A DNA stretch of 25,104 nt from Elusimicrobia bacterium HGW-Elusimicrobia-2 (GTDB taxonomy: Bacteria > CG03): positions 1 through 25,104 of the forward strand of contig PHAM01000028.1 in assembly GCA_002841685.1 (NCBI GenBank). The letters run 5' to 3'. The notes beneath the pieces were generated by a model. It was not told the DNA's origin. It saw only the letters and a program-made list of their open reading frames with translations, and made no database searches. Position 1 is the first letter of the stretch. Every line of letters starts with the position of its first letter. A program made the translations under genes and the position numbers. This document shows, in pieces, positions 3,001-23,072 of the stretch.

Positions 3001-4031
3001 TGGTGGAAATCGGTCTCGGCGACACCGCCGACGGATGTATAACGCCTGTTCCGGGCGGGGCGAAACTGGGACCCTTTAACACCTGGCCCGGCGGCTGGGA
3101 TGACGCTATAGCAAACGGGCAGGTTGAATATCTTGTGGGCGATGCGGGCGGGACAGATTTTACGGGATGGGATCCCTTCAAGACAGGCGCTTACAATGAA
3201 ACGCTCACGGATTTTTATGGGAATAATGTCCCCGCCGTCAATGTTTCAACTATCGCCGCTAATAGCGATAGCGGTGTTGTTTCCAGCGCCCCCGATAATC
3301 TTGATTATAGCGTGTCAAACAGATGGGCTCATCAGACGCTGTGTTATTTCGCGTATATGGCAAATCCTGATGAATGTTCTGATGCTGGTTACAGGCGCAC
3401 AGGAGCGACAACATTCAACAAAAAACAGCTTTTTGAGATTAAGAAGGTGGATTGCGCGGACGGATACGGCGATGAGAGCTCGGATCATAATCTTGGCGGC
3501 GTGGAATGGGATGCGGCAACGACAATAATCGGCGTTGCCGTTATGGCTCCAAAGACCCTCGGGGTTAACGGCAACTGCGAGTGGTACGCGAGAATCCCCG
3601 TTCCGCCGAATGTTGAGGAAGTGCCATTCCTCTATTACAGGATATGGGCCTGCAACGGTGACGCCGACCCTCAGGCGCACAACACCGAGCGCGGCGGCGG
3701 CGGCGAGATCGCCAGTACTACCAATACGGGCTTTAACGGAGGGACTTTCGGAAGATCAATAGATGACCCGTATCTGTCGGAATTTCCGTCAGGGGTCCCC
3801 GAGCCCGGGAAAGCCGGGGGCAGATACCGCGACAGGGATTACGGCTGGGTGACGCGTTCGCTTTTCGCAGGCAGGGTAGCCAAGCCCGCTCAGGTGCGGA
3901 TAACGGCCATCGTCAACTACAGGAATACGCAGCGCCAGGTGACAGCCTTTATGAAGATAGACGGGGCCACGAGAAGGCCCGCGGGTATAATTTCCATACA
4001 GGTCAACACACCCAAAATGTCCAGTGACTGA
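3..4031 (+). CDS. Giant extracellular FN3-like protein, 5'-truncated by window edge
   Basis: The frame is open from the left edge to a TGA at 4029-4031, giving at least 1342 residues. The true start and any signal peptide or pilin-like N-terminus lie outside the window. Composition is typical of a secreted beta-sandwich protein: rich in Gly, Ser, Thr, Asn, Asp and aromatics, poor in Lys and Cys, with no internal membrane segment. One FN3-like unit is readable at about residues 465-565, with a WSPAIDYDGD strand and a later YYWRVRALDDYG strand, the usual 'tYyWRVrA.D' end of such domains. The rest I cannot assign. The last 50 residues form a basic strand pair (VRITAIVNYRNTQRQV) that recalls the C-terminal strands of the neighbouring pseudopilins. 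The gene is followed at 50 bp by three pseudopilin genes, so it may be the tip or cargo protein of that pseudopilus. Function unknown. Confidence 0.85.
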   Translation: MLTGPSVGPNLDTIEIIRPETPADNENIFPGTVTFDCRLSGGGAGDLNGYSSFQAQLKYSLNGGAYKILAMTQDSASADGNYFTVSRPFAAGDYVYFYFEGRDGDSSTWDDCGGETSYFSVGLLNGWHYPPVQFKAGSVFPATYRYPLIPLQTQSVDIFAGCESSTVSVSLYYAVNALPQMNPDGSAASGSVKIDIGKEFSVGAAEDDREGNYFTTRVSTNPIPIQNNEDTVYYFIKTHLTGYPTTYLIKDDNSADNSHMTPDVPAVKEKCFSYTVGEVDLIDAFHIASLPDNPTGTLFMREVVDDFNTFGCYPHTAHGARTETVNIYFGKTADPGDYDSGSDDLDATLYFRNCALNGEEYTSDNKFAHKSTFTYYSTIGSTDYWHCSFVQPSDDSLRFRRDDIVEYYIELKKEGMATTVIYPGANNGASPDKDENSAAITESIFEKTASYNNSAQPKFWYQIKNYPPIMQYALYPADYANNILLPVNKCEFSWSPAIDYDGDSVVNYNLEVSKDIDFAIIITSSVYTTDTKFLFSGVTEGAVYYWRVRALDDYGMNKYGAAPSSEGWGDWCNDNSHWTFFSLGSAQVSWLSMRYGPTGTENVMEDLGDGTIYTDITNSDAVQIKFDFQPTPAATKAEARVYYAMSSLQFDPVVTIADSTNTVTNSFFFRANDVVNTPQNTNGGFGIMSPVESGSVSTATITIPADVHRKTGSGSYFWVQPCATALAESATSWINGKARCYAINENADAIVTGRGLKNSEFPADYSTAPPGVGDSNDDTMVDNYTPLWHDPSDPLMPGYLLKNYLTPQNDKKRVNWNKRRLNTSNAYLTEGTPDAAGNPDIYYGEDPGIYMRTAYHDLGSGGLAASGCSVVMSYKNNFVDAKTAPLSYEGVNLSTSMSPYELKYSFLKALESSDAKNMPENAEIQYYFKLSQGNSGISYLCKNVDGAQVVDSEGVAQANPFTYHVLQDDYTRPFVWQEPKPYATIGDSETLCGRSVGYVMVEIGLGDTADGCITPVPGGAKLGPFNTWPGGWDDAIANGQVEYLVGDAGGTDFTGWDPFKTGAYNETLTDFYGNNVPAVNVSTIAANSDSGVVSSAPDNLDYSVSNRWAHQTLCYFAYMANPDECSDAGYRRTGATTFNKKQLFEIKKVDCADGYGDESSDHNLGGVEWDAATTIIGVAVMAPKTLGVNGNCEWYARIPVPPNVEEVPFLYYRIWACNGDADPQAHNTERGGGGEIASTTNTGFNGGTFGRSIDDPYLSEFPSGVPEPGKAGGRYRDRDYGWVTRSLFAGRVAKPAQVRITAIVNYRNTQRQVTAFMKIDGATRRPAGIISIQVNTPKMSSD

Positions 4032-4043
4032 ATATAGCGGCTG

Positions 4044-4072
4044 TGGAAAATGAGTGTGTAATTTGGTAGAAT
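4044..4072 (+). promoter_or_regulatory. Candidate extended -10 promoter of pseudopilin locus A
   Basis: TGGAAA (4044-4049, 4/6 to the -35 consensus) is followed by a 17-bp spacer and TAGAAT (4067-4072, 5/6 to the -10 consensus). A TGn extension precedes the -10 box (TGG at 4064-4066). The predicted transcription start is near 4079, two bases before the ATG at 4081. No Shine-Dalgarno sequence lies between, so the message would be practically leaderless. Inference from motif spacing only. Confidence 0.5.
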
Positions 4073-4080
4073 AAACACTT

Positions 4081-4632
4081 ATGAGAAGCAACAAAAAAGG
4101 CGTAACGCTTGTTGAGCTTATGATCACCGTGTCGGTGATACTGCTGGCTCTTGTGCCGCTCCTGCGGCTTTTTATCAACGCCAACAGAGGCAACCAGCAT
4201 CTGGCTCAGATGACGGTTGCCGAAAATATCATACAGCAGACCTTTGATGAGATAAGCCGGCTGAAATGGGACGAGAACTGTGAATTTACCGGTGACCATA
4301 AAACAGGCACGACTCCGCCGCTGGGTACTGATACCCCGGAAACACCCAATGACAAGACAACTTTTGACGATATGGATGATTACGCGACGATTGACGATAT
4401 TCCGCGGTATATCTCGGGGGATATTATCCCGGGTTACGAGGCCTACCGGATTTCAGTTAAAGTGGTGTATGTTGAAAATCCCAGCTCGGGCCCTCCAACC
4501 GAAAACCTGGCGGCGCCTACGGATTTCAAGAAAGTGACGGTTCGTATCTCATGGAAAGGCGGCGGCGCCAACAGCGCGACGGTGAAGACCAAAACGCGCA
4601 TATTCTACAACGGCGTGGATTATACCAGATGA
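4081..4632 (+). CDS. Type IV pilin-like protein (PilV/GspI-like minor pseudopilin)
   Basis: This 183-residue protein starts with a short basic leader ending in KKG, followed by VTLVELMITV and a hydrophobic helix to about residue 30. This is a class III signal: a prepilin peptidase would cut after Gly7, and Glu12 is the conserved Glu5 of the mature protein. The short leader and the soluble domain ending in a strand pair (KVTVRISWKG, then KTRIFYNG) match PilV/GspI-type minor pilins, which prime pilus or type II pseudopilus assembly in the inner membrane. The acidic Asp/Thr/Pro-rich loop at about 85-125 is not a recognised domain. It opens a three-gene set; its TGA overlaps the ATG of the next gene, so translation is probably coupled. 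No ribosome site is seen upstream of the ATG. Exact subtype is uncertain. Confidence 0.82.
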   Translation: MRSNKKGVTLVELMITVSVILLALVPLLRLFINANRGNQHLAQMTVAENIIQQTFDEISRLKWDENCEFTGDHKTGTTPPLGTDTPETPNDKTTFDDMDDYATIDDIPRYISGDIIPGYEAYRISVKVVYVENPSSGPPTENLAAPTDFKKVTVRISWKGGGANSATVKTKTRIFYNGVDYTR

Positions 4633-5723
4633 TGAAAAAATCTGAAAAACACAGAGGCGCTTTCACTCTCGTGGAGATGATGATAACCATGGCTATCCTC
4701 GCCGTAATATTCATACCGCTTGTGAAAATAATGATGTCGGCAACAAAGACATGGTGGTTCGCGAGAGCCAAGATGACCATAGAGCAGGACGGCAGAGACG
4801 CTCTGTCCTTCATAAACAAGGATTTTCAGGGCGCTTACAGATTTTCAATGGGAAATCTTCTTTATAATGCCGGTTTTGAGGGATATTATCTTGATATAGA
4901 TGACAGGCCGCAACCTTCAATATGGCCGAAGGCGGATTACGGCGATGTATTTTACAACCGTTCCGCTTCAACCGCCATTGTCGCTTCCGGCTACGCTTCG
5001 GTGACGCTCATGGCCGCGAATATGCCGTATACTTATACCGGCCCGGGAGGCGGGGGCTTTGAGATCAGGGGCGGAGCAGGCGGCACCCAGGTGATGTTCG
5101 CTTTCAAGGCCAAGGCCTCAACAAATGCCGTTGTCGCCACCGATGTCACGGGTTCGGTGGAACTTTACGGCGCCGTGCAATTCAGCACGGGTTCGGGAGT
5201 CGGCATCTCATCCACAACATGGACTGAATTTGTGAAGGTCAGCACACTCACTCCGTCGGTGGAGTATAATGTTGTTTTTAAGACGACAAACGGCGGCGTT
5301 ATCATAGACGAGGTGTCGGTCAGGCCAGTGAGTTCCCTTCTTTATGATTTCCAGTTGGCGGCGAATGTGACAAACTATATGTATGTTACGCAGACATCAG
5401 GCGGAGCTCCCGGTGAACTTGAATCAATGTTCAAGATAGGGGACAGGGCAACTAAAAGCGGAGATATCATAAAAAGGCTGAACTGCTACAGTGTTGACTA
5501 TGTGTCGGACGGGTCCGAATGGGGAATAAACGCGCGCTTTTACAACGCGCTGGCCGAAAACTTACGGCATCTTGAGTTCAGGCTTGATTCCGCCGATCTG
5601 GAATCGGACGGCACGAACGCGCCGATCACCATAATACTGCAGATGGGGGCGAAGGTCAGGGGTGATAAATACGGAGACCCCACGACATTCACCATCAGAA
5701 AGACGGTGTATCCGAGGAAATAA
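4629..5723 (+). CDS. Type IV pilin-like protein (PilW/GspJ-like pseudopilin)
   Basis: I start the gene at ATG 4629 (a second ATG follows at 4632), overlapping the previous stop; the longer open frame from 4551 would bury the leader. The product is 364 residues. The leader ends RGA, followed by FTLVEMMITMAIL and a hydrophobic helix. The mature N-terminus is Phe12 and Glu16 is the conserved Glu5. The residue before the cut is Ala, a tolerated variant of the usual Gly. The motif 'rDAlsFInkDf' after the helix (about residues 55-65) is typical of PilW/GspJ proteins. The protein is about twice the length of a normal GspJ because of an inserted Gly/Ser/Thr-rich beta region at about 95-240, which may be a carbohydrate-binding-like sandwich (FVKVSTLTPSVEYNVVF). 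Expected in the inner membrane and pseudopilus tip complex. Confidence 0.82.
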   Translation: MMKKSEKHRGAFTLVEMMITMAILAVIFIPLVKIMMSATKTWWFARAKMTIEQDGRDALSFINKDFQGAYRFSMGNLLYNAGFEGYYLDIDDRPQPSIWPKADYGDVFYNRSASTAIVASGYASVTLMAANMPYTYTGPGGGGFEIRGGAGGTQVMFAFKAKASTNAVVATDVTGSVELYGAVQFSTGSGVGISSTTWTEFVKVSTLTPSVEYNVVFKTTNGGVIIDEVSVRPVSSLLYDFQLAANVTNYMYVTQTSGGAPGELESMFKIGDRATKSGDIIKRLNCYSVDYVSDGSEWGINARFYNALAENLRHLEFRLDSADLESDGTNAPITIILQMGAKVRGDKYGDPTTFTIRKTVYPRK

Positions 5724-5724
5724 A

Positions 5725-6093
5725 ATGTTAAAAAAATTAAACGGCCGGATCTTCGCAAAAGACGCGCGGGCGGGGCAGTCCATCGTGCTGGCGGTGATAA
5801 CCATTACTTTTATGGCGGGAATAGGTTATGCTCTTGTTATGTGGTCGCGGGCCCAGAGCCGTCAGGCGGTGCAGAAGGAACAGCACGGTTCCGCCGAGGA
5901 AATAGGCAAATCCTGCATTGACCAGGCCGTTTATGAGATAATGTATGGCGCATATTCCGGCGCCGGCGGATATACATGGGGTGATAATAAACTTGCCGGC
6001 GGTGATAATGTCTTGTTGCAGATGACGCTCCCTGACGGAACAACAGTGGGCGTACTTATAGAAGAAATAGGAGATATCGCCATCGAGCCTTAG
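5725..6093 (+). CDS. Short PilX/GspK-like membrane-anchored protein
   Basis: The start is ATG 5725, one base after the previous stop; earlier in-frame codons inside the preceding gene are less likely. The product has 122 residues. After a basic leader it reads AGQSIVLAVITITFMAGIGYAL, a hydrophobic helix with no Glu5, as in PilX and GspK. A polar helix follows (QHGSAEEIGKSCIDQAVYEI) in the place of the 'AAEAGie' segment of PilX proteins. Only about 60 residues follow, ending GDIAIEP, whereas PilX/GspK proteins are normally much longer. The stop lies 10 bp before a pair of GGGGACGTCC repeats, so truncation by repeat insertion is possible. Position after PilV- and PilW-like genes supports a minor-pilin role. 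Confidence 0.65.
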   Translation: MLKKLNGRIFAKDARAGQSIVLAVITITFMAGIGYALVMWSRAQSRQAVQKEQHGSAEEIGKSCIDQAVYEIMYGAYSGAGGYTWGDNKLAGGDNVLLQMTLPDGTTVGVLIEEIGDIAIEP

Positions 6094-11337: not shown

Positions 11338-12405
11338 ATGATGAAAATTGATAATGAGGATAATTTAAGGGCCAGGATAAAAGTTATAGGCGTGGGCGGC
11401 GGCGGCTGCAACGCCATTAACAGGATGATCAATTCCAACATAAAGGGTGTTGACTTTATAGCGGCCAACACTGACGCGCTCGCTTTGAAGCAGTCCCTGG
11501 CCCCGTACAGGATACAGCTCGGCGAGAACAGCACAAAAGGCCTCGGAGCCGGCGGGAATCCCGAAATCGGCCGCACGGCCGCGGAAGAATCCAGGGATGT
11601 TATAAGGCAGGCCCTGCAAGGCGCCGATATGGTTTTTGTCACCGCCGGTATGGGCGGCGGCACGGGGACGGGCGCGTCTCCGGTTTTTTCAGCCATGGCC
11701 AAGGAGATGGGGATACTGACGGTCGCCCTGGCCACAAAGCCTTTCAGTTTTGAGGGCTCGGTCAGGATGAAACAGGCCGATGCCGGTTTTAAAAATCTTG
11801 AGGGCACCGCTGACACGATACTGATAATACCGAACCAGAAACTTTTTACGGTGATAGATAAGCGCACACTCATAGAAGCGGCCTTTAACACCGTTGACGA
11901 TGTGCTCCGCCAGGCCGTTCAGGCGATAACGGATATAATCACTTCACAGTCGGTTATCCAGGTGGACTTCGCGGATGTGAAAGCCATAATGAAAGACGCC
12001 GGCAAAGCGCTCATGGGCATAGGCGAGGGAAAGGGCGAGAAGAGGACTCAGGACGCCATAAACCGCGCCATGGACAGCCCTCTGCTGGAGAATATCTCCA
12101 TAGAGGGCGCGCGGGGGCTTCTGGTGAATATAACCGGCAATCCGCAGAATCTGACGATGTTCGAGGTGGCGGAGGCGATGGAGATCGTGAAGAAGGAGAT
12201 ATCAAAGGAGTGCCATGTGTACTTCGGACAGACTTATGATGCTTCCCTGGAGGACGATGTCAAGGTGACGCTCGTGGCGACGAATTTTGAGGAAAAATCC
12301 GCGCGGGACGACACGAAACCGGATTATTTTGATACGCAGTTTTCTGCTCCGGAAGAACCCGACGCTGTTGATGTGCCGCCGGCCATGCGGAAAAAAACTT
12401 ACTGA
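11338..12405 (+). CDS. ftsZ: Cell division protein FtsZ
   Basis: FtsZ is the GTP-binding tubulin homologue that polymerises into the cytokinetic ring. The 355 residues fit a compact member. Visible motifs are the N-terminal nucleotide loop VIGVGGGGCNAI (16-27), NTDALAL (44-50), the tubulin signature GGGTGTG (106-112), and the T7-loop region VDFADVKAIM that completes the GTPase site of the next subunit. The residue equivalent to E. coli Asn207 in the T7 motif NxDxxD is Gln here (IQVDFAD), an unusual change. A short acidic linker ends in VDVPPAMRKK, the conserved C-terminal peptide for FtsA/ZipA-type partners. A strong ribosome site GGAGGTGG precedes ATG 11338 (a second ATG follows). Its stop overlaps the pilT start (TGATG), so the two are translated together. 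Confidence 0.97.
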   Translation: MMKIDNEDNLRARIKVIGVGGGGCNAINRMINSNIKGVDFIAANTDALALKQSLAPYRIQLGENSTKGLGAGGNPEIGRTAAEESRDVIRQALQGADMVFVTAGMGGGTGTGASPVFSAMAKEMGILTVALATKPFSFEGSVRMKQADAGFKNLEGTADTILIIPNQKLFTVIDKRTLIEAAFNTVDDVLRQAVQAITDIITSQSVIQVDFADVKAIMKDAGKALMGIGEGKGEKRTQDAINRAMDSPLLENISIEGARGLLVNITGNPQNLTMFEVAEAMEIVKKEISKECHVYFGQTYDASLEDDVKVTLVATNFEEKSARDDTKPDYFDTQFSAPEEPDAVDVPPAMRKKTY

Positions 12406-13550
12406 TGAAGATCAACAAATTATTTGAAGAAATGATAAGAAGGGGGGCCAGCGATCTGCATTTGCGGGCGGGGCTGCCTCCTGTTTTTAGAATAAAAAAA
12501 GAACTTGTCAGGACGGATTTTCCCCCCATGAGCAAAGATGAGATCGCCGAAAATATCCTTGATGTGCTGGATGTAAAAAGCGCCGCTGATCTGAGGGAAA
12601 AACTCCAGTGCGATTTTTCCTACGCGATACCCGGACTGGGCCGTTTCCGCGGCGCGGCGTTCTATCAGAGGGGAACCGTGGCGGCGGTTTTCAGGGCCAT
12701 CCCCGACGCTCCGTCTGATTTTGAAACGCTGGGATTGCCGAGCTCGCTTCAAAAAATAACCGAAGCCAACGACGGCCTTGTACTGGTGACGGGCCCCGCG
12801 GGCCACGGAAAATCCACCACTCTCGCGGCGATGATCAGCAGCATAAACAACAGCCGTCACGCGCACATAGTAACGCTGGAAGACCCCATAGAATATTTTT
12901 TCAAAGACAATAAATCAATCATAACACAGAGAGAGCTCGGCGGAGATATGCTCTCGTATATGGACGCTCTCAAAAACATCGTGAGGGAAGACCCTGATGT
13001 GCTGCTCATCGGCGAGATGAGGGATATTGATACCATTGAGGCGGGTATTTCGGCCGCCGAACTGGGTAATCTTGTTTTTTCCACCGTCCACACGATAAAC
13101 GCTTATCAGACCATATCGCGGATAATTGATTTTTTCCCCATTTCGCACCAGAACCAGGTGCGTCTGCAGCTTTCCGAAACTCTCAGGGCGGTCATTTCCA
13201 TGAGGCTCATGAAAAGCAAAGACGGGTCACGCATGATGCCGGTGTGCGAGATCCTGGTGAACACCGAGGCTGTTAAAAAACTTATCGCCGAAAACGAACT
13301 TTCCGAAATTTATGATCTCATGGCCAAAGGCGCTTATTACGGAATGCAGACTTTCAATCAGGCGTTCTTCGGCCTTTGCGAAAAAGACATTATAAGCGAG
13401 GAAGACGCTCTGGCTGTTTCAACAAACCCTGAAGAATTCAAGCTATACATGAGAGGCGTGGACATTACCACTGCGGCGACGGGTTTCAGCGAAGGCGAAG
13501 GCCCCGGTGACCGTAAGTGCCAAACCCCGGGTATCAAAAGGAATTTTTAA
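12405..13550 (+). CDS. pilT: PilT-family type IV pilus ATPase
   Basis: PilT and PilU are hexameric cytoplasmic ATPases that retract type IV pili. The 381-residue protein shows the family order: the ASDLHLRAG N-terminus, Walker A GPAGHGKST (130-138), Asp box TLEDPIEY (about 157-164), Walker B VLLIGEMRD (about 199-207), His box STVHT (about 226-230) and the C-terminal GMQTFNQA helix. Two departures stand out. Walker A is usually GPTGSGKST, so Ala and His replace Thr and Ser, with the essential Lys136-Ser137 kept. The retraction motif AIRNLIRE reads AVKKLIAE. A roughly 50-residue polar tail follows. It overlaps ftsZ upstream, and its stop overlaps a tiny ORF before pgeF. With pseudopilin loci on both sides, it may power those pseudopili. 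PilT versus PilU is unresolved. Confidence 0.9.
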   Translation: MKINKLFEEMIRRGASDLHLRAGLPPVFRIKKELVRTDFPPMSKDEIAENILDVLDVKSAADLREKLQCDFSYAIPGLGRFRGAAFYQRGTVAAVFRAIPDAPSDFETLGLPSSLQKITEANDGLVLVTGPAGHGKSTTLAAMISSINNSRHAHIVTLEDPIEYFFKDNKSIITQRELGGDMLSYMDALKNIVREDPDVLLIGEMRDIDTIEAGISAAELGNLVFSTVHTINAYQTISRIIDFFPISHQNQVRLQLSETLRAVISMRLMKSKDGSRMMPVCEILVNTEAVKKLIAENELSEIYDLMAKGAYYGMQTFNQAFFGLCEKDIISEEDALAVSTNPEEFKLYMRGVDITTAATGFSEGEGPGDRKCQTPGIKRNF

Positions 13551-14313: not shown

Positions 14314-14751
14314 ATGGCGGTATTGAAACACAGCTCATCGGTCGGCGTTCGCGCCCGCGGGCGAAAGCGCGCGGGTTTCACATATATAGAAGTGCTGCTT
14401 GCCGTGACAATTATAACCTATGTGTCCCTGGCTTTCATACAGACGCTGATGAACAACATAAAAGCTGAGAAGCTCACGAAATATAAAACAATGGCGTATA
14501 ATGAGGCCGTGAACTGGATAGAAGACAGCAGGCGTAACTTTGATGCCGATGTTTTGAGCACAACAACTTTCACTACGGTTCAGACGGGCGAGCTGGTTCC
14601 GGGAATGCCGTACAGCATGGAGAAAGAGATCACACTATCGTCTCTTGGAGAAAACGGCCAGTATAAGACGATTAAGGTGAGGGTCTCCTGGACGGAAAGA
14701 GGCGAGACCAGGGAAATTAATTACGCGACGATAAAGGCAAAATATGATTAA
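14314..14751 (+). CDS. Type IV pilin-like protein (PilV/GspI-like minor pseudopilin)
   Basis: I place the start at ATG 14314 rather than at the in-frame ATG 14242 inside pgeF, because TATAAT lies immediately upstream and the leader is then of fair length. The product has 145 residues. The leader ends GRKRAG, followed by FTYIEVLLAVTIITYV. Cleavage after Gly21 gives mature Phe1 and Glu5 (Glu26). The helix runs on through MNNIKAEKLTKYKTMAYNEAVNWIED, as in PilV/GspI proteins. The C-terminal strands (IKVRVSWTERGE, then INYATIKAKY) resemble those of the locus A PilV-like protein (KVTVRISWKGG, then KTRIFYNG), so the two are probably paralogues. First gene of the locus B operon, overlapping the next by 8 bp. 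Inner-membrane pseudopilus component. Confidence 0.82.
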   Translation: MAVLKHSSSVGVRARGRKRAGFTYIEVLLAVTIITYVSLAFIQTLMNNIKAEKLTKYKTMAYNEAVNWIEDSRRNFDADVLSTTTFTTVQTGELVPGMPYSMEKEITLSSLGENGQYKTIKVRVSWTERGETREINYATIKAKYD

Positions 14752-16141
14752 TGACCGAATAACCACAGGCCGGGGGAGGGCGTTTAAGCCTGCGCGCGGG
14801 TCTGAATCCGGGGCGTCTCTGGTGTTCGCTCTTTTCCTCATGCTCTTCCTCACGCTCATATCTTTTTCACTCGTTATGCTCATTTCCCATGAGGTTAAAA
14901 GCAGCACCAAACTTTATCTTTCACAGCAGGCCCTTTACGCCGCCGAAGCCGGCGTTGAAAGAAAGATAGCCGAGCTCAAAGAAGAATACTCTTCGGATAT
15001 AGCCCTCACTGATTTCTTCGGCGCGCAGTATGAGGTAAGTGTTTCGGCGGCTGGAACTGACCAGTTTGCAATTGTTTCAAAGGGATATGTTCCGAATAAG
15101 GCCTCGGCAAAAGAAGCGAGGGCGGTGCAGGTTACAGTTCTCGTTACTCCCGGCGCGCCCGAGCATGCGCTCGGTTTTTCCGGAACAGGAACAATAGGAG
15201 CTAATTCAACAATTTTCGGAACAATCAGGTCAAATAGCATAATCACCATCGGCTCTAATGTTAAAATAACGGAAAGCTCGCTAGGCAAGGGCGATGCTTC
15301 TGTTTTTACCGCCCATAACCCGCAAGACAGCGGTGTTACATCCATAAATCTGCCGGTTGGCGCCAGTCTGGAATTTCTTGTACCCGGACAGTTTATGAGA
15401 TGCAGAAACAATTCTTTGGTTGCACCGGATTCGCATGCACGCCAAAGTCCTGACGGTACCGACCAGATTTTTAGTGAGGCGCGTGTCAAAGCCACTAACG
15501 CCCCGACCATCGTTGAAAATGATAATTCTCCCGCGACGGATCCGCTTGATATTCCTTCAGCCGATCTGGATGCGCTTTTGGAAACTGCGATTAATGTGAC
15601 AACTTCCAATTACATCAGTGTAATTAATGGCGGTGATCTGAATCAGCCATGGGTATTGTCGGCAGAAGACGAGACTGGAATTTTTTCTCTTCTAGCGAAT
15701 ATGAACTGGAATCCTGATGGAGGAACATATAATTTCACCAGAGGCGTTGAATTCAGGTCTAATTCCAGTGTTGGCGCCGGTGAAGGGACGGTAATGGTTT
15801 CTTCCGGTACGAGCGATTACGGCATAGAGATTAACAGCAATTTGGGCAGCACCGAGCTCGATAAAGTCAGATTGAACCTGCTCGTTGTTGACGGCGAATG
15901 GGCATTGCGGGATATTATTTTCAACTCAAATATTTATTTGAGCGGTTACGTTTATGGTTCAGCGGATGTTGAAGGCGAAAGCAATGTGGAGATCGAAGGC
16001 ATCGTTGAGGCAGGCGGCGACCTTGTTCTTAACCCCAAGGTTACCATTACATATTCGGACGATATTCCGATGGAACTGCCATGGAAAGAAGGTTTTAGCG
16101 GCCTGGTTGAGATTATTTCGTGGCAGGAAGTATCGCCGTAA
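14744..16141 (+). CDS. PilX-like protein with long beta-rich C-terminal domain
   Basis: This 465-residue protein has a basic leader, then SGASLVFALFLMLFLTLISFSLVML (membrane helix about 23-46, no Glu5) and the PilX signature LYAAEAGVERKIAEL (about 65-79). A small strand domain ends in the YVPNKASAKEARAVQV pattern. From about residue 145 it is rich in Ser, Asn, Gly and Ile with short strands built on 'NSN/SNS' turns, for example TIGANSTIFGTIRSNSIITIGSN and, at about 385-440, FNSNIYLSGYVYGSADVEGESN. This looks like a right-handed beta-helix of the bactofilin/polymer-forming type, a pairing often seen in PilX-N proteins. Probable role: minor pilin carrying an extracellular domain. It starts inside the previous gene, and its stop is two bases before the next start. 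Confidence 0.75.
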   Translation: MINDRITTGRGRAFKPARGSESGASLVFALFLMLFLTLISFSLVMLISHEVKSSTKLYLSQQALYAAEAGVERKIAELKEEYSSDIALTDFFGAQYEVSVSAAGTDQFAIVSKGYVPNKASAKEARAVQVTVLVTPGAPEHALGFSGTGTIGANSTIFGTIRSNSIITIGSNVKITESSLGKGDASVFTAHNPQDSGVTSINLPVGASLEFLVPGQFMRCRNNSLVAPDSHARQSPDGTDQIFSEARVKATNAPTIVENDNSPATDPLDIPSADLDALLETAINVTTSNYISVINGGDLNQPWVLSAEDETGIFSLLANMNWNPDGGTYNFTRGVEFRSNSSVGAGEGTVMVSSGTSDYGIEINSNLGSTELDKVRLNLLVVDGEWALRDIIFNSNIYLSGYVYGSADVEGESNVEIEGIVEAGGDLVLNPKVTITYSDDIPMELPWKEGFSGLVEIISWQEVSP

Positions 16142-16143
16142 TA

Positions 16144-19100
16144 GTGAAGAATCTGTTCTTCTTCACTATCTGCTTGTCATTCTTCCCGTCATGTCTGTAT
16201 GGAGCTTTTGTGGATACGGAAAAACCCTTGCGGACATATTATGACGGCGGCGCGGTATGGGGGGATTTCAATAATAACGGTTTCTGTGATTTGATTGTTT
16301 TCGGCCAGACATCGTTAGGGGACATGGTGCACAGATATAATAACATCGCTGGCGACATTTCAGTATTTCAGCAAGGAACCAATATAGGCGCTGTCAATAG
16401 CGGGGATATCTCCGCCGCAGATTGCAATGGAAATGGAATTCTGGATATCGCGATAACGGGATGGCCGGGGGCATTGAATATTTATGCTGGCCGAGGTAAC
16501 GGCTTTTTTGACAATATTTTCTCCGGTTCAAAATTTCAGAATTCATCTGTGAGCTGGGTGGATATAGATGCTGACGGAGACCTCGATTTATTCGCCACGG
16601 GTTATGATAAAGAAAAGGTTGCGTGGAAAAGCGTTGTTGTCCATAATAGCGTCGGCGTATTTACAGAAGTGGAACAGGATTTGCCCGGCTTTCAGGATGG
16701 CTCCGTAGCTTTTGCTGACTACAACACTGACGGCTGGCCGGATATAGCAATAACAGGCACAACATATTATATTTATGTCGATGGGATTCCGATGTTTCCG
16801 GGCGCACCCATTTCGGTTGTTTATAAAAATCTCGGTTATGGGGAATTTGAGGAAGTGTGTAGTCTTCCCCCGCTTGAAAACGGTACTGTCGCCTGGTTTG
16901 ATTATAACGCTGACGGGTATATTGATTTGTTTATTAGCGGCAAGGAAGAAGGGCAAATTCCCGAAGAGAGGCTATACATTTATAAAAATGCCGGTCCGCC
17001 GAATTACGAACTTGTTTTGAGCACATGGCTGACCGGGGTTGAGAGCGGCCAGGTTATTTGCGGGGATATCAATAATGACGGCTACGGCGATTTTTTCATT
17101 GTTGGCTCAACAAGCACAAGCACCGTAGAAGGCGCGCTCGCCAGATTCTATACATATGATAACGGCTCGGATTTATTTCAGCTATATCAGGAACTTCCCG
17201 GACTAAGTTGTGCCGCAGCGGCTTTTTATGACTATAACAACGACGGGAAACTTGACCTTTTTTATTGTGGAGTAGAACCCGCGAGTTCTCAGGGGAAAAG
17301 TTTTCTTTATGAAAATCAGGAGGCGTCGGCAAATTTGCCTCCGCTTGTTCCTTCAAATGCGGAGGCATCCGTTTCCGAGGGGTATTTGGTCCTACAATGG
17401 GATGCTCCCGATGATGATAATACCCTATCGCCCGGGCTGAATTATTCTTTGAGAGTAGGGAGTGTCAGTTTTTCCTCAAACACAATTTCCGGGTGTCTTG
17501 CTACGCCTTTTCTCGGTTATAATCCCTCTGCGAAACTTGCCGGGGCGCCAGGCATAAATCTTGCCGGGATAAAGGAGGGTGTTACATATTTCTGGTCTGT
17601 CAGGGCGATTGATTCCGCTTTTGCCTCCGGAGGATGGACAGAAGAGCAATTTATTTTCGTGGCAGGCGTGCCGCCGTCATCCATTTCAAATCTCACGGCG
17701 CTTCCCGGCTCTATTGACGGCGCGATATCGCTCAAGTGGACGGCTCCGGGAAATGACGGCACCTTCGGAAAATGTGTCTCTTATGATGTGCGTTATTCAT
17801 CAACGGTAAACACGATATCAGACGAGTCCGGCTTCGCCTCGGCCGCTCTATGGACGCAGAGCTGGAAGCCGAAAATAGGCGGCTGGACGGAATCAAAAAG
17901 TCTGACGGGCTTGATGCCCGGCGTGACATATTACTTCGGCATCAGGGCGAGCGACGGTTTTTCTTATGGGACTTGGGGGTCCGGCGCATCGGCGAATTCC
18001 CTGCGTTTTGCTCCGGCCCAGGACATTGTTCCTTCATCGCCGACCTGGACGGCGGGTCTCAGCCCCGGTGACAGCTATATCGTTTTGAATTGGGATCTTA
18101 ACACGGAAATAGACATTTCATCCTACACCGTTGAAATGTCTACGCTTGGCGGCGCTTTTCAGCATGTGGCGTCCACAGCTCACCCCGTCAACACGTTGTC
18201 AGTGGCGGGGCTGATAAATTTTACAACTTACTATTTTCGCATCCGTTCGTCAGACTGGACAGGTCATATAAGCACATGGAGCGCCGTGAAAAGCGGCTAT
18301 CCTTTTGACACGACGCCGCCTGATGTGGTTGACGATCTTTCCGCTGTCCGTTCGTTGCCCGGTAAAATACGCCTTTCGTGGTCCGCCCCCGGCGACTCAT
18401 GGAACACTCCCGATGATCTGATTGACGGCCGGTATGAGATATCCTACGCGACATACTCATTCGCGCAGTCAACGGGAGCCTTTGCTTCAAATATGAAGAT
18501 AAGTTTTTCAACAAGCGTCGCAAAAGGCCTTGCCGTGGGCTATTCCGTGACGGGCCTTTATCATGACACGACTTATTATTTCCGTTTGCGCACCGCCGAC
18601 GAGGTACCGAACTGGGCGGGAGCGTCAAACATCGCTTACGCCAAAACGCTGGACACGGCTCCGCCCGCCGCTGTGACCGCTTTAACCGGAGAGACGGGAC
18701 AATTCCCCGGCGCTGTTTCTCTTAGCTGGATATCCCCCGGCGATAACGCGTGGTCGGGGAATCTTTCGGGGAATTTCAGGATAGATTATGACACTTACTC
18801 TTTATCCCTGAGCTCACAGACAGCGAAAAAAATCGTTCCTTCTCCCTCTCTTGCTCCGGGAAGCGCGCTCCAGTGTACGGTGACGGGGCTTCTGGCGGGC
18901 ACGAGCTATTATTTACGGTTATGGTCTTTTGATGAAGAAAACAACAGTTCTTACGCCTCAAATATAGCCACGGCTGCCGCGGAGGCGGATTCCAATCCTC
19001 CCGATGTGACGATCTTGATCCCCATCCCGCCGTTACCGCTAAAAAGCTATGGGCGTCTCTGGGAGATTTCGGGAACCGCCGCGGACAATTACGGAACTGT

Positions 19101-20679
19101 GAGCGAAGTCAGGGTGAGCACGGGTTCCGCTTCCGGCCCCTGGCATTTTGCCCAGATTACAGCGGAAACATGGTCGTTTGACTGCTCCACTTTTACTTTT
19201 ATGTCAGGCCGCGCACATACCATTCTGGCCCGGGCAAAAGATTCTTACGGGAATGAAACAAGTTCCTACACCGTCGGGATTTCATCCGTCAGTTTTTATT
19301 ATGACAATCAGCCGCCGGATGAGGTGAGCGGTATGACCGCGTCAACCGGCGCTCTTTCCGGTGTAATAGAGCTTGCGTGGACTGCTCCCTGCGATCAGCC
19401 GAAGTCAGATATGGTTACCGGCTATATCCTTAAATACGCCTCATATACGATATCCGACACAACGGCGTGGTGGGAACAGGCCGCGGATATTTCCGCGATT
19501 GCGCCAGCGCCCGGAGCCCCCGGTACATCAGAATCCGCGACGGTGAGCGGTCTTACACCCGGATGCACTTACTGGTTCGCGCTGAAATCATACGACGGAA
19601 TTGATTATTACAATTCAACATCTGCCGTATCAAACATCCCTTTCCATATGGCGCGCTACGGCCCGGACGCCGTCACGAAATTCCGCATAAATATCGCCAC
19701 AGAAATAGTGAAAGGCGTGCCGGCGACATTTTCGGTGTCGTGCCACAACCCGCATTATGAAACTTCGGTGGCGACTGAGGCTGTTGTCAGCGTCTCTTTT
19801 TCCGGAACGGGCTGTCAGTTTTATCCTTCGTCCTATGATTTCATTCTTGAAGACGGAGGAACAAAGACTTTTTCAAAAGCCCTGATATTCACGGATTTCG
19901 GCGACAGGACTTTTCAGGTCGCCGCGGGTGGAATAATAGCTTATTCCAATTCGGTGCTGGTGAGTTCATCGCCGTTTTCGTCAATAGGATCCACCGGAGG
20001 CGTTGTTTCAGCCTCTGATGACATAAAACTTGTGATACCCGCAGGCGCTCTTTCATCAAATCAGACGCTGCGCTTAAACATGGTGACAGATAATGCCGAT
20101 ATCCCCTCTTACAGCGGCTCAACGATTGCGGCATCCGCCTGCGAAATAAAACAGCTTGCGGGTGATGAGCTTGTTTTTAACACCGCCGCCACGCTCACTT
20201 TGTCTTTTCTTGATAACGATGCTGACGGAAACGAAGACAAAACTGGGGTGTCCGAAAATTCTCTCGGTCTTTTCTTTTATGACGGGAAAGCGTGGAGAGT
20301 GCTTGATGACGACGCCGGCCTTTCCGCTTTATCCGTCGCGACGGGAAATGTTTTTGTCTCAAAAGTTTACAGGACCGGAAAATACGCGATCTTCCCCCTT
20401 TCGGGCGTTTCCCGAAGTGTATCGGGAGTCAAACCCAAGAGGAAGATCATAACGCCCTATGCCGCCGGCTCCAACGATTTTATAGAGTTTACCGGAGCCA
20501 CGGAGCCTTTTACGCTGGCAGTGTATTCGGCATCGGGCAAAAAGGTTTTTGAAGCTCAGAACAGCTACACATGGGCGGGTGTGACGACAGGCGGAGCGAA
20601 GGTGCCGGGTGGAATTTATTTTTACGAGATGGTTTCTCCCGTTGGCACAATAACCGGAGCTGTGGTGGTGGCGCGATGA
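16144..20679 (+). CDS. Giant secreted protein: seven FG-GAP repeats, FN3 domains, ZU5-like domain, sorting-like C-terminus
   Basis: I use GTG 16144 because it yields a clean signal peptide (MKNLFFFTICLSFFPSCLYGA, cut before FVD) and directly follows the previous stop; GTG 16120 is the alternative. The product has 1511 residues. Residues about 33-380 hold seven FG-GAP/VCBS repeats, each with a calcium-type loop (DFNNNGFCD, DCNGNGILD, DIDADGDLD, DYNTDGWPD, DYNADGYID, DINNDGYGD, DYNNDGKLD), the number needed for one seven-bladed propeller. About six FN3 domains (WxxP...YYFxxRxxD) and one Ig-like unit follow at about 397-1165. Then come an Ig-like segment and a ZU5-like domain (GGVVSASDDIKLVIPAGAL, from about 1277). 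The last about 80 residues (from KIITPYAAGSNDFIEF to VPGGIYFYEM) match the FlgD-like fold used as a T9SS-type sorting tail. Function probably adhesion or surface display. Confidence 0.85.
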   Translation: MKNLFFFTICLSFFPSCLYGAFVDTEKPLRTYYDGGAVWGDFNNNGFCDLIVFGQTSLGDMVHRYNNIAGDISVFQQGTNIGAVNSGDISAADCNGNGILDIAITGWPGALNIYAGRGNGFFDNIFSGSKFQNSSVSWVDIDADGDLDLFATGYDKEKVAWKSVVVHNSVGVFTEVEQDLPGFQDGSVAFADYNTDGWPDIAITGTTYYIYVDGIPMFPGAPISVVYKNLGYGEFEEVCSLPPLENGTVAWFDYNADGYIDLFISGKEEGQIPEERLYIYKNAGPPNYELVLSTWLTGVESGQVICGDINNDGYGDFFIVGSTSTSTVEGALARFYTYDNGSDLFQLYQELPGLSCAAAAFYDYNNDGKLDLFYCGVEPASSQGKSFLYENQEASANLPPLVPSNAEASVSEGYLVLQWDAPDDDNTLSPGLNYSLRVGSVSFSSNTISGCLATPFLGYNPSAKLAGAPGINLAGIKEGVTYFWSVRAIDSAFASGGWTEEQFIFVAGVPPSSISNLTALPGSIDGAISLKWTAPGNDGTFGKCVSYDVRYSSTVNTISDESGFASAALWTQSWKPKIGGWTESKSLTGLMPGVTYYFGIRASDGFSYGTWGSGASANSLRFAPAQDIVPSSPTWTAGLSPGDSYIVLNWDLNTEIDISSYTVEMSTLGGAFQHVASTAHPVNTLSVAGLINFTTYYFRIRSSDWTGHISTWSAVKSGYPFDTTPPDVVDDLSAVRSLPGKIRLSWSAPGDSWNTPDDLIDGRYEISYATYSFAQSTGAFASNMKISFSTSVAKGLAVGYSVTGLYHDTTYYFRLRTADEVPNWAGASNIAYAKTLDTAPPAAVTALTGETGQFPGAVSLSWISPGDNAWSGNLSGNFRIDYDTYSLSLSSQTAKKIVPSPSLAPGSALQCTVTGLLAGTSYYLRLWSFDEENNSSYASNIATAAAEADSNPPDVTILIPIPPLPLKSYGRLWEISGTAADNYGTVSEVRVSTGSASGPWHFAQITAETWSFDCSTFTFMSGRAHTILARAKDSYGNETSSYTVGISSVSFYYDNQPPDEVSGMTASTGALSGVIELAWTAPCDQPKSDMVTGYILKYASYTISDTTAWWEQAADISAIAPAPGAPGTSESATVSGLTPGCTYWFALKSYDGIDYYNSTSAVSNIPFHMARYGPDAVTKFRINIATEIVKGVPATFSVSCHNPHYETSVATEAVVSVSFSGTGCQFYPSSYDFILEDGGTKTFSKALIFTDFGDRTFQVAAGGIIAYSNSVLVSSSPFSSIGSTGGVVSASDDIKLVIPAGALSSNQTLRLNMVTDNADIPSYSGSTIAASACEIKQLAGDELVFNTAATLTLSFLDNDADGNEDKTGVSENSLGLFFYDGKAWRVLDDDAGLSALSVATGNVFVSKVYRTGKYAIFPLSGVSRSVSGVKPKRKIITPYAAGSNDFIEFTGATEPFTLAVYSASGKKVFEAQNSYTWAGVTTGGAKVPGGIYFYEMVSPVGTITGAVVVAR
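20410..20427. repeat. Small perfect hairpin inside the giant gene
   Basis: TCCCGA (20410-20415) and TCGGGA (20422-20427) are inverted around AGTGTA. It encodes the Ser/Arg/Val linker just before the C-terminal sorting-like domain. Its form resembles a dispersed palindromic repeat, but only one copy is in the window. Confidence 0.4.
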
Positions 20680-21833
20680 AGAAGACGGCAATTGGCATTG
20701 TGACAGCGATAATAGGAACCGTCCCCATCATTATTTGTCAAGCCCCGTCCCCTATCTCCGCATATTTTGAGGATCCGCCTCAGAGTTTCGGCAAGCTCAC
20801 ATTCGCCGGGGCGCATTCACTGGAAAATCCCGCTGTTTTTAACGGGACGTCTCTGGATATTGTTTATCACACGCCTTATATGGGCGTTGACGAGGAATTT
20901 TCATCCTATCACTTAAGCGCTTCACGGGAATGGAGCCGGTTACAGCTTTCTTTTTCAATGAGTGATTTCGGTTTTGACAGTGTTTATAACGAACAGATTA
21001 CCCGTCTTTCTCTCGGATTAAAAGTGAACAATACATGGAAAGCGGGTATCGCGCTCAAACAGTTTGCCATAAAGTTCAGTCCCGACACTTACGCCACCGG
21101 AGATCCTTATTTAACCTCAACGGACGCTTCCGCCATGGACGCTGATCTGGGAATCGTAAAAAATACCTCTAAAGGGGATATTTCGTTCAGCATCTCAAAT
21201 CTTCTGGGTTCGGGAATAGGCCTTGTCGGCTCCGAGCCGCTCAACAGAAGCATCGCCGCCGGCTGGTCGCTGCCTTTCAGCATTTTTAACAGGCGGCATC
21301 TGTTCTTCTCTGAGTTGGCTGTCAACGATTCCGATAATTTTGAGAGTTTTGATTACCGTCTTGCCCTGGAATCTAACCTTTCGTCCAATATGGTTTTCCG
21401 AATTGCCTTTGACAGATATTATTTTGTTCCGTCGGCTGAATTCAGCTATCCGCTTGAAGGAAAGTACGATATAGGCGCGGGTTTTGCATACAGGTATCCA
21501 TATAACACTTTCAGCGGCTTTACGCAGTTTACGACGCTGATAACTATTAAGAAGAAAATAAAAACTGACACTGAAAGCGCTTTGAAGAAAGAAAATGAAA
21601 TTAAAAAAGAAAAACCTGACGGCGCTGAAAGTAAAGCGGCGCGCGAAGAAACCTCCGGTCAGAAGCAATTGATGAAAGAGAATTATTTTAACGCCGCCGT
21701 GCAGCATTATGAAAAAGGTGAATATGAAAAAGCTATAGAGCAGTGGGAGAAACTGCTGGAACTGGAGCCCGAACATTCCGAATCAAAGCGGCTCATAAAA
21801 AAATCCAGGGAGAAATTAAATGAGACTAAATAA
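20676..21833 (+). CDS. PorV/FadL-like outer-membrane barrel with C-terminal TPR
   Basis: The ATG at 20676 overlaps the stop of the giant gene (ATGA). The 385-residue protein has a signal peptide of about 29 residues (cut after PISA). About 270 residues follow of alternating amphipathic strands with PorV-like features: ENPAVFNGTS near the N-terminus, a YMGVDEEFSSYHLSASREW strand, YATGDPYLTSTDASAMDADLG, ISNLLGSGIGLVGSEPLNRSIAAGWSLPF and the later YDIGAGFAYRYPYNTFSGFTQF. PorV is the outer-membrane lipocalin-like shuttle that accepts T9SS cargo. A charged Lys/Glu linker (about 290-330) leads to a single TPR (about 332-375, NAAVQHYEKGEYEKAIEQW) which would lie in the periplasm. The upstream neighbour with a T9SS-like tail fits as its client. 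Specific PorV activity is inference. Confidence 0.7.
   Translation: MKKTAIGIVTAIIGTVPIIICQAPSPISAYFEDPPQSFGKLTFAGAHSLENPAVFNGTSLDIVYHTPYMGVDEEFSSYHLSASREWSRLQLSFSMSDFGFDSVYNEQITRLSLGLKVNNTWKAGIALKQFAIKFSPDTYATGDPYLTSTDASAMDADLGIVKNTSKGDISFSISNLLGSGIGLVGSEPLNRSIAAGWSLPFSIFNRRHLFFSELAVNDSDNFESFDYRLALESNLSSNMVFRIAFDRYYFVPSAEFSYPLEGKYDIGAGFAYRYPYNTFSGFTQFTTLITIKKKIKTDTESALKKENEIKKEKPDGAESKAAREETSGQKQLMKENYFNAAVQHYEKGEYEKAIEQWEKLLELEPEHSESKRLIKKSREKLNETK
20709..20732. repeat. REP-like repeat, copy 2 (inside a signal peptide)
   Basis: ATAATAGGAACCGTC at 20709-20723 repeats the sequence found after coaE, with 21 of 24 bases alike overall. Here it is in frame and encodes residues 12-19 of the PorV-like protein (IIGTVPII), the hydrophobic heart of its signal peptide. 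Confidence 0.65.
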
Positions 21834-22329
21834 ATATCTCAAAGGGCGCAGGGGCATGACTTTGATAGAGCTCACGATTGTCATTGCCATTTCAGGCATC
21901 TTAATAATAGGGATATTAAAACTTTTCCAGACGTCGTCTGATATATGGACTTCATCCCTGCATTCCATAGACATACAGCAAAAGGGCCGCGCGGCGGTTG
22001 AGGAAATAACCCGTTTCGTCCGGCAGTCAACAAGCCCTGCCACGGGCATAAGCCCCGCGATAGGCGGCACTTCCTCGTCGCTAAAATTCACTTTTCTGAA
22101 AGACACAAGCACTTTTACAAATATGGAATACTTCAAAAGCGGCAGCGCGCTTTACCGCGTGTCCGGCAATTCAACTTCAACTCTTATAGAAAATTATGTT
22201 GACAGCATATATTTCAAGCATGTTTCTTCATATGTGGTCACAATTGAAACTTTTACTCTCACCAAAGGCACGGGCAAAAATCAGAAAACACTGACCTTTG
22301 AAAGAACAATAAACCTCCGCAACCGTTAA
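21820..22329 (+). CDS. Type IV pilin-like protein (PilW/GspJ-like pseudopilin)
   Basis: This 169-residue protein starts 14 bp inside the end of the PorV-like gene, with AGGGAGA about 7 bases upstream as ribosome site. The leader RLNKYLKGRRG is followed by MTLIELTIVIAISGILIIGIL. Gly12 is the cleavage site, mature residue 1 is Met and Glu17 is Glu5. The segment DIQQKGRAAVEEITRFVRQS after the helix is typical of PilW/GspJ proteins ('...r.aldeisrdlR.a'). The remainder is a compact strand domain of normal length, ending in FTLTKGTGKNQKTLTFERTI. It closes locus B, so the operon begins with a PilV-like, contains a PilX-like and ends with a PilW-like protein, with the secreted protein and barrel in between. 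Confidence 0.85.
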   Translation: MRLNKYLKGRRGMTLIELTIVIAISGILIIGILKLFQTSSDIWTSSLHSIDIQQKGRAAVEEITRFVRQSTSPATGISPAIGGTSSSLKFTFLKDTSTFTNMEYFKSGSALYRVSGNSTSTLIENYVDSIYFKHVSSYVVTIETFTLTKGTGKNQKTLTFERTINLRNR

Positions 22330-22354: not shown

Positions 22355-22383
22355 TTGACAAACTTTTCTATATCGCCTATAAT
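22355..22383 (+). promoter_or_regulatory. Consensus sigma70 promoter of the toxin-antitoxin cassette
   Basis: TTGACA (22355-22360) and TATAAT (22378-22383) are both perfect and separated by the optimal 17 bp. It is the strongest promoter in the window. A loose inverted pair TTATT...AATAA around 22385-22406 downstream of the -10 could be the antitoxin operator, but it is weak evidence in AT-rich DNA. Confidence 0.85.
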
Positions 22384-22416: not shown

Positions 22417-22659
22417 ATGAGAACGAGCGTAATCCAAACTTTATCTCTGCCGCCTGAGATGATTGAACAGGCAACGAAAATTGCTAAAGAAGAAGGAATG
22501 ACAAAAAGCGAGCTTTTTAGAGAAGCATTTAGACAATTTATGAGAAGGAGAAGATGGGAACACATTCGCGAATATGGAGCCCAAAAAGCAGCGCACCTTG
22601 GAATAAAAGATGAACAAGATATAGAAAAGCTTGTTGATGAATATCGTTCTGGTAAGTAA
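22417..22659 (+). CDS. Ribbon-helix-helix antitoxin (CopG-like)
   Basis: This 80-residue protein has the ribbon-helix-helix layout: a short N-terminal strand (RTSVIQTLSLP, residues 2-12), helix A (PEMIEQATKIAKEEG), the turn MTKSEL, and helix B (FREAFRQFMRRR). An acidic C-terminal tail (KDEQDIEKLVDEY) probably wraps the toxin. Such proteins dimerise, bind the operator of their own promoter and neutralise a partner toxin. The ribosome site AAGGAGGAG (22405-22413) is the best in the window. A PIN toxin begins 8 bp downstream. Base composition is clearly richer in A+T than the flanking host genes, suggesting recent acquisition. The helix repeat RRRRW is strongly basic. Confidence 0.88.
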   Translation: MRTSVIQTLSLPPEMIEQATKIAKEEGMTKSELFREAFRQFMRRRRWEHIREYGAQKAAHLGIKDEQDIEKLVDEYRSGK

Positions 22660-22667
22660 ATAAACCT

Positions 22668-23072
22668 TTGGACAAAGTAGTAGTAGATACCAATGTTTTG
22701 ATTTCTGCTGCTTTATTTGGGGGAAATCCTGAAAAGATATTAGACCTGGTGCAGGAAAATAGAATAACCTTGCTGATTTCCGACGAAATACTGGATGAAT
22801 TTAAAAAAGTTTTGCATGAAAAATTTAGTTTTAGTATAGTTGCGGCGTCCCGAGCAGCTTCTGTAATAAAAGAAATAGCCACAATAGTAACCCCAGACCA
22901 AAAACTAAATGTCATAAAACTAAAAGAATCTGACAATAGAATCTTGGAGTGCGCCGCTGCCGGCAACGCTCAGTATATAATTACAGGGGATACAAAACAC
23001 ATCCTGCCTCTAAAGAAATACAAAAAGGTAAAAATTTTAAGACCATCTCAATTTCTAAAATTGATAGAGTGA
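22668..23072 (+). CDS. PIN-domain toxin (putative ribonuclease)
   Basis: PIN toxins are Mg-dependent endoribonucleases that cut tRNA, rRNA or mRNA when their antitoxin is lost. The 134-residue protein resembles the 'putative toxin-antitoxin system toxin component, PIN family'. Four acidic active-site positions are present: Asp7 in VVVDTNVLISA, Glu44 in SDEILDEF, Asp89 in KESDNRILECA and Asp108 in IITGDTKHI. It uses a TTG start 8 bp after the antitoxin; no nearby ATG exists, so synthesis is probably coupled and weak, as suits a toxin. It appears intact. AT-rich like the antitoxin. It ends just before a hairpin facing the convergent TonB-receptor gene. Confidence 0.88.
   Translation: MDKVVVDTNVLISAALFGGNPEKILDLVQENRITLLISDEILDEFKKVLHEKFSFSIVAASRAASVIKEIATIVTPDQKLNVIKLKESDNRILECAAAGNAQYIITGDTKHILPLKKYKKVKILRPSQFLKLIE

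Follow-up and report, generated by a model that had tools for sequence, protein, structure and literature searches.

What are a giant secreted protein and an outer-membrane barrel doing among the minor pilins of a type IV pilus? The question is raised by positions 14314–22329 of contig PHAM01000028.1 of Elusimicrobia bacterium HGW-Elusimicrobia-2 (GCA_002841685.1; the whole stretch of 25,104 nucleotides is called the window here), where five touching or overlapping genes of one orientation encode a PilV-type and a PilX-type minor pilin, the giant, a FadL/PorV-type barrel and a PilW-type minor pilin (Table 1). A preliminary description made from the sequence had listed these five products and seen in them minor-pilin and type 9 secretion system (T9SS) parts united in one operon, which is supported by the analysis below, and had proposed that the giant is secreted or displayed with the aid of the pilins, which is not. 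The reading that we favour, at about an even chance, is that of a type IV pilus-tip operon with a built-in surface adhesin, exported by the type 9 route and working together with the pilus tip.

The metagenome-assembled genome (MAG) to which the window belongs, as its contig C68, measures 1.78 Mb, is 96% complete and is here called G000; it is one of a set of 16 genomes of an 'Elusimicrobia'-labelled phylum, probably CG03 of GTDB. The relatives include the Elusimicrobia bacterium MAGs CG03_land_8_20_14_0_80_50_18, AUK224, AUK228, LH_S2 and GH52 and one genome labelled Caldiserica, and five genomes of a sister phylum were used for comparison.

The five gene products

The genes follow each other closely: PilV and PilX overlap by 8 bp, the giant starts with a GTG 2 bp past the PilX stop, the barrel gene overlaps the giant by 4 bp (ATGA) and PilW overlaps the barrel by 14 bp. 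In the promoter and terminator scan the counts were near the shuffled expectation, and no support for the operon is drawn from it. PilX and PilW are recognized by Pfam above the cut-offs (PilX_N with 27.0 bits against 25.5, and N_methyl with 26.0 bits against 21.2, respectively), and PilV reaches only 14.8 bits, below the Pfam cut-off, yet carries the GFTYIE motif. With the curated models PilV scores about equally as gspI (29.2 bits, cut-off 44.35) and as type_IV_pilV (28.1 bits, cut-off 52.2), both below cut-off. The giant contains five FG-GAP_3 and five fn3 stretches, and its tail matches CHU_C with 29.6 bits, above the cut-off of 27, and Por_Secre_tail (TIGR04183) with 13.9, below the cut-off of that model. 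No PilY1 (Neisseria_PilC) domain was found in the giant by Pfam.

Conservation of the gene order

According to the gene calls, the close relative G003 has the full order PilV-PilX-giant-barrel-PilW, as in G000. G001 shows giant-barrel-PilW on a contig that begins within the giant, and the order is followed as far as the contig end in G006 (PilV-PilX-giant-barrel), G005 (PilV-PilX-giant) and G013 (PilV-PilX-barrel). G007 has PilV-PilX-giant with PilW divergent. In G014, which is from a different family, the whole order is kept with a giant of 780 aa and a barrel of a different lineage, and G012 has PilV-PilX-barrel followed by an FG-GAP protein. The contigs of G002, G008 and G010 stop at PilX. 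The giant/barrel insertion is thus kept beside PilX in every relative with enough contig, across five families, and the conserved gene order, which the preliminary description had proposed to look for, recurs in several families of the phylum and is therefore more than chance. To the window giant, the FG-GAP domains of the operon giants have E-values of 1.9e-36 (G014) and 1.4e-38 (G012), matches far stronger than those to any other protein read from G000. In the G007 lineage the operon is rearranged; PilW lies divergent beside PilV and a PorV-like barrel fragment lies behind (G007:C64, L073 5945-6966).

The barrels of G014, G012 and G013 are mutually orthologous with 37–53% identity, and the kin of the barrel in the window's family f1 are found in G003, G001 and G006. 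A phylum-wide orthology of the operon barrel was considered and is unsupported for f1 against families f3, f5 and f6; the barrel was either replaced or has diverged past recognition. A FadL/PorV-type barrel is always present in the operon, and it is its lineage that varies.

In all five sister-phylum genomes the cluster reads PilV-PilX(-PilX2)-PilW with no giant or barrel, and is followed by tmk-, holB-, psp1- and metG-like genes (names assigned by eye from the sequences). The same housekeeping genes follow PilW in G014. These gene orders are most simply explained by the insertion of a cargo-barrel pair between PilX and PilW. A parallel case of pilin, propeller cargo and barrel is seen at another sister-phylum locus (G075:C58, L226 6443-10775), where a PilX-like gene is directly followed by a tailed Kelch-propeller protein and then by a PorV/PorP-like barrel.

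Type 9 components and cargo-barrel pairs

Among the T9SS core components named in the preliminary description, a SprA-like translocon is present. Pfam SprA_N matched six genomes and nothing in the window's own genus; a profile built from the open reading frames (ORFs) of these six genomes then found a SprA-like gene of about 1700 aa in 15 of the 16 genomes, including the own copy at G000:C93:2995-8034, and also in two sister-phylum genomes. The profile matches SprA of the PDB with E 4.4e-18, and one of the ORFs matches TIGR04189 with E 7.5e-55 and 185.9 bits, just under the cut-off of 200. The SprA-like gene adjoins a comF-like gene in a conserved neighbourhood.

The AlphaFold model of the window barrel gives good support for membership of the FadL superfamily, and its best two Foldseek matches in the PDB are PorV proteins of T9SS (8gl6_F, 6.2e-7, and 6h3i_F, 1.4e-6). 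With the PorV/PorQ model NF033709 (cut-off 90), the barrels in the operons of G014 and G012 score 132.8 and 129.3 bits. The earlier naming of the window barrel as PorV-like is based on its best fold match, its context and these scores in related genomes, and not on its own sequence. NF033709 is exceeded at its curated cut-off in 16 of 16 genomes, at 6–35 places in each and at 25 in G000. Barrels of the PorV/PorQ family are often fused to TPR, OmpA or, at L157 1825-4206, CsgG-OmpA domains.

Within G000, a tailed secreted protein is encoded directly ahead of 14 of 22 PorV-family genes, but of only 4 of 147 other genes (Fisher p 8e-12), a count that covers the stretches read, which were picked by barrel or TPR matches and not by tails, and that includes the pair of the window. 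The two genes mostly overlap by 4 bp. The giant and its barrel are therefore one of many cargo-partner modules. At least 13 further pairs of tailed protein and PorV-family barrel were found in this genome, none with adjoining minor pilins in the stretches read. Since such pairs exist without pilins in the genome, and the pilin cluster without the pair in the sister phylum, export of the giant apparently needs none of these pilins, and the idea that they help to secrete or display it is not sustained.

Genes for a FliG-domain protein together with MotA and MotB-OmpA are found at L168 12328-15298 and L170 2366-5913, the former set adjoining PorV-family and tailed-protein genes, and a MotB-OmpA-TPR gene lies near SprA at L167 782-1579.

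The pilus side

In the PilX model (pLDDT, the predicted local distance difference test, 82) a long helix at the N-terminus is accompanied by a pilin head and by a beta-helix, the latter in agreement with the preliminary description. Its best match is ComZ of Thermus thermophilus (6qvi, Foldseek E 3.9e-10), and a second aligner (VIA) gives Z 18.5 over 358 residues with a root mean square deviation of 6.9. By sequence, PilX has no match in the PDB at E <= 1, ComZ included. ComZ itself, which binds DNA, has been proposed to sit at the pilus tip, and its pilin head holds an inserted beta-solenoid (PMC6561018).

T2SSE ATPases are encoded in 16 of 16 genomes. The assembly ATPase that was to be sought elsewhere in the genome is found as PilB, together with PilT and PilC, at G000:C31, and a further PilT is encoded just upstream of the operon in the window; this set fits a retractile type IV pilus. 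The ComZ-like fold of PilX and the nearby pilT favour the tip of a type IV pilus over a secretion pseudopilus. As to a grouping of the pilins with a set encoded elsewhere, the operon PilX sequences are set apart in the tree from a G005 paralogue at a PilB/PilC-type locus and from the sister-phylum sequences; the tree is not fully resolved, the place of the paralogue being unsure because of long branches. Neither of the two conditions that the preliminary description had set for its own refutation, an unconserved gene order or a grouping of this kind, thus came out against it. Genes of the type 9 type and pilus genes also touch at a second place in the genome (G000:C10, L159 1-2780), where a tailed protein and a PorV-family barrel are directly followed by a PilT-type ATPase gene.

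A recombination mosaic

When G000 is compared with the close relative G003 and with G001, the similarity changes along the operon. In PilV and the PilX helix, G000 and G003 share about 96% identity. Across the PilX solenoid and the propeller of the giant (about 14950 to 17690), G000 is only about 50–67% identical to G003 (and to G001 where covered), and G003 and G001 are about 82–96% alike; in the stretch 17700 to about 21300 the likeness of G000 and G003 rises again to about 92%, with G001 at about 73%; and between 21400 and 22200, in the TPR end of the barrel and PilW, it is G000 and G001 that are about 92% alike, with G003 at about 77%. The informative sites follow the same pattern, with 419 sites joining G003 and G001 in the N-terminal part of the giant (against 56 and 51 for the other groupings), 611 joining G000 and G003 in its C-terminal part (against 106 and 87), and 71 joining G000 and G001 in PilW (against 17 and 14). 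The controls SprA (989 against 95 and 87) and ftsZ (245 against 20 and 15) join G000 and G003 without blocks, matching the species relation. In the PilX tree, G000 is joined to G005 of another genus (100/99), contrary to that relation. The G001 assembly is without PilX, and the PilX part of the first block is taken from the drop between G000 and G003 and from the tree.

These comparisons show the operon to be a recombination mosaic; in two genes the limits of its blocks coincide with borders between domains. A chimera of binning or assembly is an unlikely cause, since single contigs contain the pattern and identity in the shared tracts is mostly 82–96% and not about 100%. Exposed binding parts are expected to show such a pattern, and the solenoid of PilX travels together with the propeller of the giant, which supports their cooperation without proving it.

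Proposed mechanism and alternative explanations

In the mechanism that we propose, PilV, PilX and PilW would make up the complex that primes a type IV pilus and forms its tip, with the ComZ-like beta-solenoid of PilX as the ligand-binding head of the tip. The giant would leave the cell via Sec and then through the SprA-like outer-membrane translocon, using its C-terminal sorting domain, and its own FadL-type barrel would take it over and hold it at the surface, as SprF does with SprB, with the N-terminal FG-GAP propeller facing outward. Co-expression from one operon and the joint replacement of solenoid and propeller suggest a common ligand for the two heads, or binding of one head to the other, so that whatever the retracting pilus draws in would meet an adhesin anchored at the surface. 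The sequences establish the gene content and its conserved order, the SprA and PorV-family genes, the cargo-barrel pairing and the mosaic exchange, and the models give predicted folds for two of the proteins. Export of the giant by the type 9 route is likely; its cooperation with the pilus and its anchoring by its own barrel are what we infer. The most specific form of the proposal, a device of two machines in which a type-9-exported, barrel-anchored propeller adhesin physically cooperates with a pilus tip carrying the ComZ-like PilX, with heads swapped as one cassette and outside the stated group of the T9SS, is tentative and should be regarded as rather doubtful.

Several observations weigh against the favoured reading of a pilus-tip operon with a type 9 adhesin. 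The window barrel has no NF033709 match at E <= 1, and Pfam and NCBIfam give TPR only; its model, with 14 strands and C-terminal helices, has a mean pLDDT of 65 (medium confidence); and in the VIA alignments PorV (8gl6_F, Z 17.2) is tied with FadL proteins of up to 17.9, so that the barrel is equally close to FadL. The operon barrels of f1 and of f3, f5 and f6 belong to different lineages, and no orthologous PilX was found in G009, G011 and G015, profile search included. Adjacency alone could yield the joint exchange of solenoid and propeller. The GldM N-terminal domain (PF12081) was found in 0 of 16 genomes, a weak test as the Pfam model of SprA also missed SprA in most genomes and the control set held no positive above cut-off. 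A motor of the MotA/MotB type may possibly stand in place of GldL/GldM.

The giant might instead be an analogue of PilY1, carried on the pilus tip and exported via the secretin with PilV, PilW and PilX, its C-terminal domain being a mere structural cap. It is placed among minor pilins as pilY1 is in the pilV-W-X operons of type IVa pili (PMC13190605, PMC5979040), which likewise have a giant with propeller-type repeats and are accompanied by pilT and pilB, and the ComZ-like tip pilin and the joint exchange of PilX solenoid and propeller would suit this explanation as well. However, no PilY1 domain was found in the giant; a propeller at the C-terminus is what defines PilY1 proteins (PMC13190605), whereas the giant has FG-GAP repeats at its N-terminus, then fn3 and a type-9 tail, and the CHU_C tail with a partner barrel gene overlapping by 4 bp resembles the other cargo genes of the genome. 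We consider a PilY1 analogue improbable, slightly more so than the next possibility, that the cargo-barrel pair was inserted by chance and kept solely for the sake of co-regulation, linked to the pilus neither physically nor through a ligand. That such pairs are frequent and stand alone elsewhere in the genome, that the sister phylum has the pilin cluster without the pair, that the lineage of the barrel has changed, and that adjacency may explain the co-exchange are all in keeping with such hitch-hiking, but chance does not easily account for an insertion kept beside PilX in five families, for an FG-GAP domain homologous throughout, or for exchange limits at domain borders in two genes, and this explanation, too, is improbable. 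The idea of the preliminary description, that the three pilins build a pseudopilus which pushes the giant to the surface or displays it there, could draw on the operon shared by pilins and cargo and on the near-equal GspI and type_IV_pilV scores of PilV; set against the other cargo-barrel pairs without adjoining minor pilins, the pilin cluster without cargo in the sister phylum, the ComZ-like PilX and the nearby pilT, it is very unlikely.

Comparison with known systems

Bacteroidota have the giant adhesin SprB, which is held by the co-encoded barrel SprF, and more generally cargo with type B C-terminal domains and PorP-like barrels (PMC9143113). The likeness extends to a giant adhesin with a C-terminal sorting domain, an adjoining dedicated 14-stranded barrel of the FadL family, several pairs per genome and a SprA translocon. 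In contrast to sprB-sprF, the window barrel is of the PorV/FadL type with TPR, the pair is part of a minor-pilin operon, no GldLM motor came out of the (weak) PF12081 scan, and the host is outside the Fibrobacteres-Chlorobi-Bacteroidetes (FCB) group. With SprA-PorV of Flavobacterium johnsoniae (6h3i, 8gl6), where the sorting domain of the cargo is bound by PorV loops inside SprA (PMC10994853), the locus and its genome share a SprA-like protein, a barrel of PorV fold and a cargo sorting domain, but SprA is about 1700 aa here against 2403 aa, and there are many PorV-family barrels per genome. The competence pilus tip of ComZ and PilA2 in Thermus thermophilus (PMC6561018) likewise has a minor pilin with a large beta-solenoid in its head, a proposed receptor at the pilus tip, beside another minor pilin; it shows no detectable sequence similarity to the window PilX, the likeness being one of the modelled fold, and no type 9 cargo or barrel is described in that system.

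Features and neighbouring genes

The coordinates of the features are collected in Table 1.

Table 1. Features of the operon, its exchange blocks and the upstream pilT gene (positions of the window).
Feature	Position	Strand	Basis or remark
PilT-type retraction ATPase	12405..13550	+	Upstream neighbour in family f1: ftsZ-pilT-yfiH-PilV...
PilV/GspI-type minor pilin	14314..14751	+	Class III signal GFTYIE; orthologues adjoin PilX in nearly all relatives
PilX-type minor pilin with inserted beta-solenoid, ComZ-like fold and C-terminal SWQE motif	14744..16141	+	PilX_N, alignment, model, Foldseek
Exchange block B: PilX solenoid and propeller of the giant, replaced as one tract between species	14950..17690 (2.7 kb)	+	G000/G003/G001 comparison
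Giant secreted protein, 1511 aa	16144..20679	+	Sec-type signal, N-terminal FG-GAP, fn3, C-terminal sorting domain
FG-GAP repeat region of the giant (predicted beta-propeller)	16240..17330 (limits approximate)	+	Pfam FG-GAP_3 6.7e-23, five stretches
C-terminal CHU_C / FlgD_ig / Por_Secre-type sorting domain of the giant	20443..20676	+	CHU_C 29.6 bits; tail profile
FadL/PorV-type 14-stranded outer-membrane barrel with C-terminal TPR (~21681-21776)	20676..21833	+	TPR match, model, Foldseek
Exchange block D: barrel C-terminus/TPR and PilW, common to G000 and G001 against G003	21400..22300	+	G000/G003/G001 comparison
PilW/GspJ-type minor pilin	21820..22329	+	N_methyl; orthologues end the cluster, tmk-like gene next in G014

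A perfect σ70 consensus promoter is located at 22355-22383, just past PilW and ahead of a small gene pair (22418-23072) that by eye encodes an RHH-type antitoxin and a PIN-type toxin. Another minor-pilin set lies at 3-6093, with PilV-like (4081-4632), PilW-like (4551-5723) and small PilX-like (5662-6093) genes; it opens with a large protein (3-4031) that has no recognised tail and is cut by the contig start, and the contigs of G003 and G001 stop there at about 3.6 kb. Rfam and tRNA scans gave no match.

Implications

No paper linking type IV minor pilins with type 9 cargo was found in our literature search, and the locus suggests cooperation, at the surface of the cell, between two machines so far regarded as unrelated. 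The T9SS with SprA has been called specific to Bacteroidota or to the FCB group (PMC9143113, PMC12611786, the latter for SprA and the FCB group); the finding of a SprA-like protein in an Elusimicrobia-labelled phylum (15 of 16 genomes) and in the sister phylum widens the distribution of the system. With PorV-family genes at 6–35 places per genome, these bacteria offer a system of cargo plus own barrel, and the exchange block that joins the head of a pilus tip to the head of an adhesin makes their cooperation directly testable.

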